Source: Pseudomonadota bacterium (GTDB lineage Bacteria > Pseudomonadota > Gammaproteobacteria > Acidiferrobacterales > Acidiferrobacteraceae). Taken from it: a stretch of DNA of 40,656 bases. The notes under the pieces were generated by a model. The model was given only the letters and a program-made list of their open reading frames with translations. It did no database searches and was not told where the DNA came from. The DNA lies in the NCBI GenBank assembly GCA_021816625.1, contig JAKAXM010000020.1, positions 1 to 40,656 of the forward strand, read 5' to 3'. Position 1 is the first letter of the stretch. Each line of letters opens with the position of its first letter. Shown here in pieces: positions 4,438-8,682 of this stretch. The translations under genes were made by a program, and so were the position numbers.

Positions 4438-5115
4438 ATGTTGCGCCCTCTGGCGCGCGCTGTCCGGGCCTTTGGGGCCCGGCGGCGCCTACTTTTGTCT
4501 TTGCTCGCGGGGCTCGTGGTCTTGTTTGGGCTCCCGCGCGCCTATCTCCTCGATGTGCGTATGCTCTTGGCATGGGACGGGGCTTGTATCGCATTTTTGA
4601 CGATGGCCTGGGCTGTGATGGGATTTGCCGATGCCAAGGAGACGCGCCGCAGTACCGTAGATCAAGATCAGAGCGGTCTTGCGTTACTGGGGGTGGCGTT
4701 GCTGGCTGCCGCGGCCAGCCTCTTTGCGATCCTCTTTCTTTTAGGCCATGTGAAAGGGGTATCCTACCCGCATAAGCTTGCGTATCTGGCGCTTGCGGTC
4801 TCAGCGGTGGCCGGTTCGTGGTTCGTGGTCCACACCGTATTCGCGTTTCATTATGCACATGGTTATTACCGCGGGCGAGCCGTGATCGATGGTGTCCGCG
4901 ACGACGGCGGGATCCGCTTTCCCGGGACGGCGGCGCCTAATTACGCGGATTTCCTGTACTTCTCGTTTGTGATCGGCATGACCTCGCAGGTATCGGACGT
5001 GGCGGTCAGTTCCCACAGCATGCGCCGGGTCGCGCTCGGGCATGGCATCATCTCCTTTGCCTTTAATACCCTGATTCTCGCGCTCACGATCAATATCGTC
5101 GCCAGTCTGATCTAG
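4438..5115 (+). CDS. DUF1345 family integral membrane protein
   Basis: The 225-residue hydrophobic protein has about five membrane segments (near residues 18-38, 45-62, 80-102, 115-135 and 200-222). The region PNYADFLYFSFVIGMTSQVS followed by DVAVSS and MRRVALGHGIISF is characteristic of DUF1345. The function of the family is unknown; a related motif occurs in putative ion-channel-like membrane proteins. The ATG at 4438 is 7 bp after the stop of the PQQ-repeat lipoprotein, so the two are likely one transcription unit. Confidence 0.8.
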   Translation: MLRPLARAVRAFGARRRLLLSLLAGLVVLFGLPRAYLLDVRMLLAWDGACIAFLTMAWAVMGFADAKETRRSTVDQDQSGLALLGVALLAAAASLFAILFLLGHVKGVSYPHKLAYLALAVSAVAGSWFVVHTVFAFHYAHGYYRGRAVIDGVRDDGGIRFPGTAAPNYADFLYFSFVIGMTSQVSDVAVSSHSMRRVALGHGIISFAFNTLILALTINIVASLI

Positions 5116-5176
5116 CGGAAGCGCCCCGTGCGAGGCGGCAGGCCATCCCTTCCTTATCTCAGCGAAGAATGGCCCA

Positions 5177-5194
5177 CCCGTACGGCCGTACGGG
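5177..5194. terminator. 18-bp perfect palindrome between convergent genes, possible bidirectional terminator
   Basis: CCCGTACGGCCGTACGGG is a perfect inverted repeat that can form a 7-bp stem with a GGCC loop on either strand. It lies between the stop codons of the DUF1345 gene (5115) and the aldo-keto reductase (5197), where a shared terminator would be expected. No T-tract follows on either strand, so rho-independent activity is doubtful. A protein-binding palindrome is the alternative. Confidence 0.35.
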
Positions 5195-5196
5195 CC

Positions 5197-6237
5197 TTAG
5201 GGTGCCGGATTGGGCGAGCGCAGATGGATCTCCTCCACGGCCGCCAGGATCTCGGGCGACAAAACGATGGCAGCGTAGGCCAAATCGTCTTTGAGTTGCG
5301 CCAGGGTACGCGCGCCGATCAGCGTGGAGGCCGTGAAGAAGCGCGAGCGGACGAAGGCGAGCGCCAGCGCCGCCAGGGGCAGACCGAAGGTCTCCGCGAT
5401 GTGCGCGTAGGCCTCGAGGGCCGGACGGATCGCGGCCTTTTGATAGCGCTCGCCAAATTGCGGGAAGCGGTTTAGGCGCGCCTCAGGGTCCGAGGGCGCC
5501 AAGTATTTGCCGGTAAGCAGGCCAAAGGCCAGTGGGCTGTAGGCGAGTAGTCCCAGTTGCTCGCGATGGCAGATCTCGGCTAAGCCCGACTCAAAGTTGC
5601 GATTGAGGAGATTGTAGGCGTTCTGGATGGTCGCCACGCGCGGGAGATTCAGGCGCTCGGCGGCGCGCAAAAACTGCATGACCCCCCAGGGGGTCTCATT
5701 ACTGAGACCGATGTAGCGCACCTTGCCCGCGCGCACCAGTGCCCCCAAGGCGTCGAGCGTCCGGTCGATGGCCGCGTGCTCGTCCCCCGTCGTGCGCGGA
5801 TCGTACTGGGTCGCGCCAAAGAGGGGCAGCGGCCGGCCCGGCCAGTGAATCTGATAGAGGTCCACATAGTCGGTCCGCAATCGTTTCAGGCTCGCGTCGA
5901 TGGCCGCATTGATGTTGGCGGCATCCAGGGCAAGCGGTCCGCCTCGGATCCAGGTAAAGCCCCGCGAAGGGCCCGCCACTTTGGTGGCGATCACGACCTG
6001 ATCGCGTGGCTGCCGCGCAAGCCAGCTACCTACGATCTCTTCGGTCGCGCCCTGGGTCTCGGCCCGCCCGGGCACGGGATACATCTCGGCCATGTCAAAC
6101 AGCGTGATGCCCTGTTCACGGGCGTAGTCGAGTTGGGCGTGGGCCGAGGCCTTGTCGGTTTGTTCTCCGAAGGTCATGGTGCCAAGCCCGATGTCGGAGA
6201 TCGCGAGATCGGTGCCGGGGATGTGGTGGATGCGCAT
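5197..6237 (-). CDS. tas: Aldo-keto reductase, Tas-type
   Basis: The 346-residue TIM-barrel oxidoreductase shows the family order: GLGTMTFGEQ near the start, FDMAEMYPVP containing the catalytic D and Y, the Lys in VIATKVAG, the YVDLYQIHWPGR motif, YIGLSNETPWG, and NADPH-binding segments near the end (TLIGARTLAQL). The long insert and overall length match the E. coli Tas/YghZ group, which are NADP(H)-dependent reductases of uncertain natural substrate. It is transcribed alone towards the DUF1345 gene. A TTGACA box upstream gives a possible leaderless transcript starting at its ATG. Confidence 0.88.
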   Translation of the reverse strand: MRIHHIPGTDLAISDIGLGTMTFGEQTDKASAHAQLDYAREQGITLFDMAEMYPVPGRAETQGATEEIVGSWLARQPRDQVVIATKVAGPSRGFTWIRGGPLALDAANINAAIDASLKRLRTDYVDLYQIHWPGRPLPLFGATQYDPRTTGDEHAAIDRTLDALGALVRAGKVRYIGLSNETPWGVMQFLRAAERLNLPRVATIQNAYNLLNRNFESGLAEICHREQLGLLAYSPLAFGLLTGKYLAPSDPEARLNRFPQFGERYQKAAIRPALEAYAHIAETFGLPLAALALAFVRSRFFTASTLIGARTLAQLKDDLAYAAIVLSPEILAAVEEIHLRSPNPAP

Positions 6238-6243
6238 GGCGCG

Positions 6244-6272
6244 ACTTTGCCAAGCAGGGCGCTGCCTGTCAA
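6244..6272 (-). promoter_or_regulatory. Putative promoter of the aldo-keto reductase, placed for a leaderless transcript
   Basis: On the minus strand a consensus -35 TTGACA (6272-6267) is followed after 17 bp by CAAAGT (6249-6244), a poor -10. The ATG begins 6 bp after it, at the predicted start point. The -35 is strong and the -10 weak. Confidence 0.4.
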
Positions 6273-6297
6273 ATGGCTGCGCCGCGCACGCCTTTGG

Positions 6298-6303
6298 TAT
6301 ACT
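6298..6303 (+). promoter_or_regulatory. -10 element TATACT before the structured RNA
   Basis: TATACT differs from TATAAT at one base. It would start transcription near 6310, exactly at the 5' edge of the base-paired element that follows. No good -35 was found at 16-18 bp. Confidence 0.4.
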
Positions 6304-6308
6304 GTCGG

Positions 6309-6396
6309 CTTACGCGAGCGGATCGCGCTTGCCCCAAGCGGCATCCGCAGGCCCCGCACAGCACAGCCCGCGGGGCCGCGTAAGACGCGTTTTTTT
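6309..6396 (+). ncRNA. Structured leader or small RNA with U-tract, upstream of tsaB
   Basis: The segment can fold by eye into a compact three-way junction. P1 is CTTACGCG (6309-6316) with CGCGTAAG (6377-6384). P2 is GCGGAT (6318-6323) with ATCCGC (6343-6348), continuing across a 2x2 internal loop as CGCTTG (6326-6331) with CAAGCG (6335-6340). P3 is GGCCCCGC (6350-6357) with GCGGGGCC (6370-6377). Directly after, CGCGT-AAG-ACGCG (6377-6389) forms a 5-bp hairpin followed by seven Ts (6390-6396), which resembles a rho-independent terminator. That hairpin and P1 use the same bases and exclude each other, as in an attenuator. It could regulate tsaB or be a free small RNA about 85 nt long. I know no family with this structure. 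Confidence 0.45.
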
Positions 6397-6411
6397 AAAT
6401 GGTAGGTGGCC

Positions 6412-7071
6412 GTGGTCAACATCGTAGCGATAGAAACGGCGACCGCCGCGGTCTCGGTGGCGGCGCGGCACGACGGCGCGATCGTGATGCGCGGCGTACG
6501 GGACGCTACCGCGCGCGCCGAGACCGTCCTCGAGCTCTTGCGGGCCTTGTGCACCGAGACGGGCATGCCCTGGCCCGCGGTCGATGCCATCGCCTTCGGA
6601 CGCGGTCCGGGTTCGTTTACGGGATTGCGGGTCGCGGCCGCGGTCGCCCAGGGGCTGGCCTATGCCCATCGCCGGCCCGTGGTACCGGTCTCGTCGCTCG
6701 CGGCCTTGGCGCAGGAGGCACCCGGGCAGCGCATCCTCGCGGCCATCGATGCCCGCCGCGACGAGGTGTATTACGGTCTGTTTCGGCGCCTGCCGACCGG
6801 CCTCGTGGTGGCAGATGGCCCCGAACATCTAGCCGCACCGGACGCGATTGGCGTGCCCGCGGACACGGACACGGGGGTAGGTAGCGGTTTCGATCACTAT
6901 CGCGAGCGCTGGCAGTTCCATGGCGGGCTAAGACATGTGCCTGACCTCCTGCCGAGTGCCGCGGGCGTATTGCGGCTGGCCGAGGCGGCCTATGGACGCG
7001 GGGATATCGTAGATGCGCGGCTCGCGGCCCCGGTGTATCTGCGCGACGAGGTCGCCATCGTTCGCTCGTGA
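6412..7071 (+). CDS. tsaB: tRNA t6A37 threonylcarbamoyladenosine protein TsaB
   Basis: TsaB is the non-catalytic partner that bridges TsaD and TsaE when threonylcarbamoyl is transferred to A37 of ANN-decoding tRNAs. The 219-residue protein shows the ASKHA-fold N-terminus IVAIETATAAVSVAA, the hallmark GRGPGSFTGLRVA and the AAIDARRDEVYYGLF strand, and has normal length. I chose GTG 6412 because GGTAGG lies 5 bp before it and because the product then begins close to the usual M-x-I-L-A-I-D-T; GTG 6406 is the alternative. The gene follows directly on the structured RNA at 6309-6396 and precedes the MutS2-like gene by about 30 bp. Confidence 0.9.
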   Translation: MVNIVAIETATAAVSVAARHDGAIVMRGVRDATARAETVLELLRALCTETGMPWPAVDAIAFGRGPGSFTGLRVAAAVAQGLAYAHRRPVVPVSSLAALAQEAPGQRILAAIDARRDEVYYGLFRRLPTGLVVADGPEHLAAPDAIGVPADTDTGVGSGFDHYRERWQFHGGLRHVPDLLPSAAGVLRLAEAAYGRGDIVDARLAAPVYLRDEVAIVRS

Positions 7072-7104
7072 CCACCCCCGCGGGCGTGAGGTCTGCGGGC
7101 CATT

Positions 7105-8682
7105 GTGAAGAGGGAGGAGAGCCTGGACACCGATCTTGATGCCCTCGAATTTGGCGGTATTCAGCGCCTGCTGGAGCGTTTGACTGTCACCCCTTATGGG
7201 GCCGATGCGGCCCGCACCTTGCGGCCGGCCCCCGACCAAGGGCAGGCGCAGGCCATGCAGGCTGCGGTGAGTGCGGCCCGGCGCGCCGTCGAGGGCGGTG
7301 CCGCGGGCCCCGCGCGGCTGCCTGATATCAGGGCGGCCTTACGCCAGGCGGCGCAGGCGCAGGCGGCGCTGCCGGGGACGGCATTGGCCCATATCGCGCA
7401 GGTGCTGCAGGCCGGCGCGGTGCTCGGCGACGTTCAGGCTCATGACCACGATCTCTATCCCGATGCGCAGGATCTGGTGCCAGCCCCCGCCCTTGAAGCG
7501 CAACTGCGTGCCGCGGTCCTGCCGACCGGCCGGCTCCGTGATACGGCAAGTCCCGGTCTGCAGCAAGCGGCGGCGCGGCTTGCGGCGGAACGGCAGGCGG
7601 TGGAGGCCATCCTTAAGGAGCGACTGGCGGCTTTGGGACTCCGGGACCAAGACGAGGCCTTGGCCACGGCCGGGGCCCGGCTGCTGTTGAGCCTCCCGGC
7701 GGCGCTTGCCGACACGGTCAAAGGGGTGCGCTGCGGGCCGGCTGCCCAGGGCCGGCGCTACCTAGTGGAGCCCTTGGAGGCGGTCGCGGCCAATAACCGT
7801 CTGGAGGCGCGCGCCGGCGAGCGTGATCGCGAGGAACTATGGGCACGGCGGGAACTCACGGCCCTGGTGCGGGAGGCGGCCGCGGGGCTTGACCGTCTGC
7901 TCGGGGCCATTGCGTGGATCGACCTTGCGTTTGCGGCAGCCCAGATCAGTATCCACATGAATGCGGTGCCTCCTCGGTTCGATGAACGTCCGCTCTTGCA
8001 CATGGAGGCGGTCTACCATCCGGCCATGCTGCTTGCCTTCGCCGACCGCCGCGGCCAAAAGCCCGTGCCGCTTTCGATCACGCTCGATGCCGAGCGTCCG
8101 ATGTTGCTCGTGACCGGGCCCAACACCGGAGGTAAGACGGTCGTCTTGAAGACCGTGGGCCTGCTGGTCGCCATGGCCTATTGCGGTCTGCATCTACCAA
8201 GCGAGGGGGAGGTCGTGATCGGGCGCTTTACGCGACTTATCGTCGACATCGGCGACCGCCAGAACATCCTCCATCAATTATCGACATTCGCGGCCCATGT
8301 CGAGATCTTGAAGCGGCTCCTGAGCGAGGCGGATGGCGAGACCTTGGTGCTGATGGATGAACTGGGGACCGGGACCGATCCCGAGGAGGGCGCGGCGCTC
8401 GCCATGGCGGTACTCGATGAGCTCGCCCGCCGCGGGGTCCGTGGCCTCATCACGACCCACTTGAGCCCCCTTAAGGGCTATGCGGATCGGCACGCCCATC
8501 TCACCAATGCGACCATGCGCTTTGATGCCGAGCGCCTCGCGCCGACCTATGAACTCGAGATCGGCGCGAGCGGATCTTCCCATGGACTTACCATTGCCGA
8601 ACGCCGCGGGCTCTCGCCCGAGCTCTTGCAGGCCGCGCGTCACCACCTTACGCGGTTATTGGCCTCGCGCCCAGCGCCTTGA
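7105..8682 (+). CDS. MutS2-like ATPase lacking the C-terminal Smr nuclease domain
   Basis: The protein of about 525 residues has a MutS2-type N-terminal core beginning LDALEFGGIQRLLERL, a helical lever/clamp region and the MutS ATPase. Walker A is TGPNTGGKTVVLK, Walker B is LVLMDELGTGTDPEEGAAL, and ITTHLSPLKGYA follows. Usual MutS2 is about 770-800 residues and carries a long coiled coil, a KOW-like part and an Smr endonuclease domain; here the protein ends just after the ATPase (LSPELLQAARHHL), so these are absent. MutS2 acts on branched DNA or on collided ribosomes; without Smr this one can at most bind and move. The only standard start is GTG 7105, without a ribosome-binding site. An in-frame CTG at 7123 sits 5 bp behind AGGGAGG and would fit the family start better. 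Confidence 0.82.
   Translation: MKREESLDTDLDALEFGGIQRLLERLTVTPYGADAARTLRPAPDQGQAQAMQAAVSAARRAVEGGAAGPARLPDIRAALRQAAQAQAALPGTALAHIAQVLQAGAVLGDVQAHDHDLYPDAQDLVPAPALEAQLRAAVLPTGRLRDTASPGLQQAAARLAAERQAVEAILKERLAALGLRDQDEALATAGARLLLSLPAALADTVKGVRCGPAAQGRRYLVEPLEAVAANNRLEARAGERDREELWARRELTALVREAAAGLDRLLGAIAWIDLAFAAAQISIHMNAVPPRFDERPLLHMEAVYHPAMLLAFADRRGQKPVPLSITLDAERPMLLVTGPNTGGKTVVLKTVGLLVAMAYCGLHLPSEGEVVIGRFTRLIVDIGDRQNILHQLSTFAAHVEILKRLLSEADGETLVLMDELGTGTDPEEGAALAMAVLDELARRGVRGLITTHLSPLKGYADRHAHLTNATMRFDAERLAPTYELEIGASGSSHGLTIAERRGLSPELLQAARHHLTRLLASRPAP

Follow-up and report, generated by a model that had tools for sequence, protein, structure and literature searches.

The window, by which we mean the whole analysed stretch of 40,656 nt, is contig C32 of a 2.19-Mb genome that is 99% complete, and has a G+C content of 65%. 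Within it, 174 bases (6238-6411) separate an aldo/keto reductase gene from the divergent tsaB, a gene of t6A tRNA modification that is followed downstream by a MutS2-like gene (TIGR01069). The spacer holds, in this order, an extended -10 box, a predicted three-way junction, a hairpin with seven Ts and a likely ribosome-binding sequence (Table 1). The predicted start codon of tsaB is the GTG at 6412, with an in-frame GTG at 6406 as an alternative. A tblastn search of plasmids with TsaB returned 60 records, every one below 60% identity.

Table 1. Coordinates of the genes and predicted elements around the reductase-tsaB spacer.
Feature	Position	Strand	Remarks
Aldo/keto reductase gene	5197..6237	-	Pfam PF00248; start at 6237; divergent, conserved neighbour of the locus
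Promoter block TGTCAAAT...TTTGGTATACT	6267..6303	+	Motif shared by 10 of 14 genus genomes; holds extended -10 TGG-TATACT at 6295-6303
Three-way-junction fold	6309..6384	+	Minimum-energy structure (predicted)
P1	6309-6315/6378-6384	+	7 bp in the minimum-energy fold
P2a	6318-6323/6343-6348	+	Minimum-energy fold
P2b	6326-6331/6335-6340	+	Minimum-energy fold; 2x2 internal loop between P2a and P2b
P3	6350-6357/6370-6377	+	8 bp, minimum-energy fold
Weak terminator-like hairpin CGCGT-AAG-ACGCG + T7	6377..6396	+	Stem 6377-6389, 5 bp; T7 6390-6396; overlaps P1/P3 at 6377-6384
Likely ribosome-binding sequence GGTAGGTGG of tsaB	6401..6409	+	Inferred by reading the sequence; directly 3' of the U-rich stretch
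tsaB (TsaB/YeaZ, t6A tRNA modification)	6412..7071	+	NCBIfam TIGR03725, E 4.5e-46, above cut-off

The 99 nt from 6298 to 6396 fold with -48.7 kcal/mol (z -3.7), and none of 200 dinucleotide shuffles was equally stable. When both strands of the window were tiled with 1354 segments of 90 nt, energies as low as that of the element occurred in 35 segments and an equally low z in three, one of them the element itself, these z values being noisy with 24 shuffles per segment. By these calculations the fold lies moderately beyond chance. The first-pass annotation had described three perfect helices of 8, 6+6 and 8 bp within 76 nt. The compact junction at 6309-6384 stands, but the count of eight for both outer helices uses C6377 twice: P1 and P3 of that length share this base, and 15 of the 16 pairs can coexist. 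According to the prediction, a complete P1 requires a transcription start no later than about 6309, and one at 6310-6312 would shorten it. The discriminator behind a -10 box usually measures 6-8 bases, which would place the start at 6310-6312 and trim P1. If A6312 is the first base, the prediction moves the closing helix to 6312-6316/6386-6390, directly before the Ts, and termination would be most readily conceivable in this form.

The same annotation had noticed that a hairpin with seven Ts competes with the closing helix, and the predicted structures agree: the 5-bp stem overlaps the 3' strand of P1, giving mutually exclusive helices of the antiterminator and terminator kind. The hairpin is weak (-4.5 kcal/mol; d-score 4.1, by a formula of the literature). 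By this score the window holds two sites, the second lying on the strand opposite a GGDEF-domain gene; 40 shuffled windows averaged 1.3. Between 5000 and 7500, two terminator-like sites were observed and 1.2 expected, and a T7 is not rare in itself, as the window has five runs of seven Ts when both strands are counted. For the spacer only, 30 of 1000 shuffles contained a terminator-like site, a proportion that speaks somewhat against an accidental hairpin. Overall, its excess over chance is marginal. With two sites in 40.7 kb, intrinsic terminators of the d-score type seem scarce in the window.

For transcription starts between 6305 and 6315 the minimum-energy fold lies 1.8-6.9 kcal/mol below the terminator state (structures checked at 6308 and 6312), with a gap of 2.7 kcal/mol for a start at A6312. 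If transcription starts at 6308, P1 is already formed in the minimum-energy structure once the transcript reaches 6384, before bases 6385-6389 exist. Because P1 would form first, and because the terminator state is less stable than the minimum-energy fold, read-through is to be expected as the default.

The best-supported part of the earlier observation is the -10 box. The TATACT that had been placed directly before the folded RNA is present as an extended -10, and in a plus-strand scan for extended -10 elements (at least 5 of 6 positions) the only matches were at 6295 and 349, the former being the sole one near tsaB. A consensus promoter scan that requires a -35 box gave nothing in 5000-7500 and missed this promoter as well. 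We searched 14 genomes of the genus for TGTCAAAT-N(10-30)-TTTGnTATAMT, with the reversed pattern as a control. In 10 of the 14 the pattern, with a spacing of 16 or 18, matched exactly once per genome and always at the tsaB locus; the reversed pattern matched in none of the 14. The four genomes in which this search did not find the pattern are G001, G010, G003 and G008. Alignment of the block 6238-6304 with each of 11 relatives beat 100 of 100 shuffles; the -10 is missing from G001 and G010, where the aligned part is the reductase side of the block.

Comparison of the orthologous loci puts this promoter into context. The aldo/keto reductase occurs in 12 of the 14 genus genomes, that of the window included, and tsaB in 11 genomes besides that of the window (a contig end truncates the G012 copy); each of these 11 relatives has the two genes as divergent neighbours on one contig. 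Neither gene was found in G003 and G008, the latter pair including a genome that is 85% complete (G008). Nine of the 11 relatives carry the same promoter upstream of rmlD-tsaB, with rmlD (TIGR01214, E 8.1e-92 for the G009 copy) filling a reductase-tsaB gap of 1047-1430 bases and abutting or nearly abutting tsaB. The gaps of G001 and G010 measure 320 and 331 bases and are without rmlD; their spacers (L042 and L041) resemble each other and are unlike that of the window beyond the reductase side. A search of the genome of the window for rmlD at E 1e-10 gave no match, which makes tsaB the first gene after the conserved promoter. The reductase of the window is 77-81% identical to those of the rmlD-bearing relatives versus 70-71% to those of G001 and G010, and this closer relationship favours a loss of rmlD from the species of the window over its never having been present.

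For the leader itself no such conservation was seen. The first 90 nt of the leaders of the 11 relatives fold with z between -2.16 and +1.55, compared with -4.05 for the leader of the window (6308-6397), the lowest among the 12 folded; a TATGAT chosen by eye served as the -10 of G001 and G010, and the 90 nt of G005 extend into the start of rmlD. A run of at least five Ts was absent from up to 300 bases after the -10 in these 11 relatives, and the plus strand of their gaps contains no terminator-like site in any of the 11. The proposal that tsaB has a conserved class of riboswitch or attenuator finds no support in these 11 orthologous leaders, none of which has a comparable fold, T run or terminator-like site. 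Such absence is evidence against a class of riboswitches at tsaB but does not speak against a young control confined to this species.

Local alignments of the leader with 10 of the 11 relatives scored inside the spread of 100 shuffles, the G004 score being reached by 4 of 100, whereas that with G002 exceeded 100 of 100. A 22-nt stretch, 6341-6362, is similar to one position within rmlD that is the same in G002 and G004, and part of it also to G012. Of mononucleotide shuffles, 0 of 100 in one set and 9 of 3000 in another reached the G002 score, as did 42 of 500 dinucleotide shuffles when the best of 11 was taken, so that the likeness is weak on closer testing; the stretch may be a remnant of rmlD, but we did not accept it as one. 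A profile of nine rmlD loci aligns with the promoter side and misses 6341-6362.

Searches for relatives elsewhere agree with the earlier remark that no known class at tsaB comes to mind. Rfam at gathering scores yields one tRNA in the window and leaves the element unmatched by any riboswitch aptamer; over 6200-6500 with E up to 10, six matches to unrelated families all fell far under their gathering scores. A comparison of the element with plasmids by distant blastn gave no match. In 60 genomes, including its own, a DNA search (14 candidates scored per genome in many of them) found, besides the window, stretches of 15-46 nt with a best E of 9.4e-4 among the matches listed, and a test for repeat elements found one full copy in its own genome at E 0.001. 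Among the papers listed on tsaB, yeaZ or threonylcarbamoyl leaders, no title or abstract opening describes a leader of tsaB.

The covariance search of relatives that the first-pass annotation had called for brought up no credible relative in 57 genomes of the order (14 of the genus), among the matches listed. The model was built from one sequence, that of the window entered twice; such a model has little sensitivity for distant relatives, and one that is rearranged or diverged may have escaped it. The search took the first 150 candidates in 12 of the 14 genus genomes, and that of the order used stricter filters with at most 75 candidates each. Their position in coding sequence and the missing T run led us to judge the four best other matches to be chance. 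One, in the same genome (contig C7, L071 1501-1580, minus strand; E 4.8e-5), covers the 3' end of a MerR-like frame and 10 further bases; one in G008 (E 0.0057) lies in sense inside a 726-aa frame; and those in G040 (E 6.2e-5) and G026 (E 4.4e-4) lie antisense to a DHBP synthase/GTP cyclohydrolase II gene. The C7 match, where two convergent reading frames meet, is a G+C-rich hairpin; the MerR assignment was read by eye. The other 12 genus matches had E values of 0.10-0.97, about the level of the element's own minus strand (18.9 bits). A conserved aptamer, as expected of a new riboswitch, was accordingly not seen at the 11 orthologous loci or, among the matches listed, in the 57 genomes.

We consider the element to be, more probably than not, a structured 5' untranslated leader of the tsaB mRNA in one species, which is read through by default. 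Transcription would begin at the extended -10 promoter that is conserved in the genus and precedes rmlD-tsaB in most relatives. Without rmlD, tsaB would stand directly behind this promoter, and the leader of about 100 nt would fold as a three-way junction. The junction would form first and hold the 5' strand of the terminator-like stem, so that the polymerase reads through. The structure may then serve as a stable 5' end of the mRNA, and the U-rich stretch before the ribosome-binding sequence may be a loading site for ribosomes. Transcription, read-through, mRNA stabilisation and ribosome loading are steps that we infer. On this account the element is a structured mRNA leader of ordinary kind, unusually compact and restricted to one species in the material searched. 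A known example of a structured 5' leader that protects the mRNA end is that of ompA. Leaders of this type likewise have stable hairpins near the 5' end and then a U-rich stretch before the ribosome-binding sequence, but they form separate hairpins rather than a three-way junction. If it is only a leader, it matters little beyond the observation of a promoter that is fixed across the genus while the sequence between promoter and gene is replaced. Against a plain leader, the combination of a z near -4 with a hairpin and T7 could have been selected as an attenuator or a small RNA, because it is more than chance usually gives, as the spacer shuffles indicate.

A species-specific transcription attenuator of tsaB, with P1 as the antiterminator and a ligand, a protein or a change of start site opening P1 so that the hairpin and U7 terminate, seems unlikely to us, though less so than the other alternatives. 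In attenuators and riboswitches the terminator and antiterminator helices compete, and in the tsaB leader, too, the closing helix and the U-followed hairpin draw on the same bases. The gap falls to 2.7 kcal/mol with a start at A6312, the site is one of two in the window by the d-score, and few spacer shuffles hold such a site. However, the terminator is weak, with its 5-bp stem, and the density of such sites in the window is near that of shuffles. Moreover, unlike known attenuators and riboswitches, the tsaB leader showed no conserved aptamer, Rfam match, leader peptide or relative; by eye, we saw one TTG-started frame, which has no ribosome-binding sequence and no threonine-rich run. Apart from the matches judged to be chance, the 57 genomes gave no RNA relative among the matches listed. 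T-box RNAs resemble the element in being leaders upstream of a tRNA-related gene, but no T-box model matched at its gathering score in the window or up to E 10 over 6200-6500. If the element were regulatory, RNA control of t6A synthesis would have evolved here recently, and sister species would show the same locus lacking it.

An independent small RNA of about 85 nt, running from the conserved promoter to U7 and leaving tsaB to leaky read-through, is a distinctly unlikely reading, even if promoter, compact fold and T7 come in the right order. A conserved promoter sequence does precede it, though one common to tsaB. The RNA would separate tsaB from its only observed promoter, 6295 being the only extended -10 match nearby, and t6A synthesis is generally important. 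The terminator is weak, and no second copy or relative was found among the matches listed. As for the attenuator, P1 would form before the 3' strand of the terminator, and the minimum-energy fold beats the terminator state.

Quite improbable, in our estimate, is that the element has no function and is a drifting G+C-rich spacer, perhaps left by the loss of rmlD, that folds well by chance. The G+C content of the window, the 35 segments of equally low energy and the unremarkable z values of the 11 other leaders, none of which resembles that of the window beyond shuffles on close testing, speak for it, but a z near -4 was reached in just the three segments that include the element. Very improbable is a species-specific ON-type switch, arisen perhaps after the loss of rmlD, in which the junction would be an aptamer or start-site sensor and the closing helix would block the U7 terminator, linking t6A tRNA modification to a signal.

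Besides the structured tsaB leader that we favour, the spacer carries a conserved arrangement on the minus strand of 6244-6272. Here, ACTTTGCCAA and TGTCAAAT are kept at all 12 loci aligned (ACTCTGCCAA in G013). On that strand they read TTGACA, 17 bases and CAAAGT, and end 6 bases before the ATG of the reductase, a layout that points to an operator or to a leaderless mRNA of the aldo/keto reductase.
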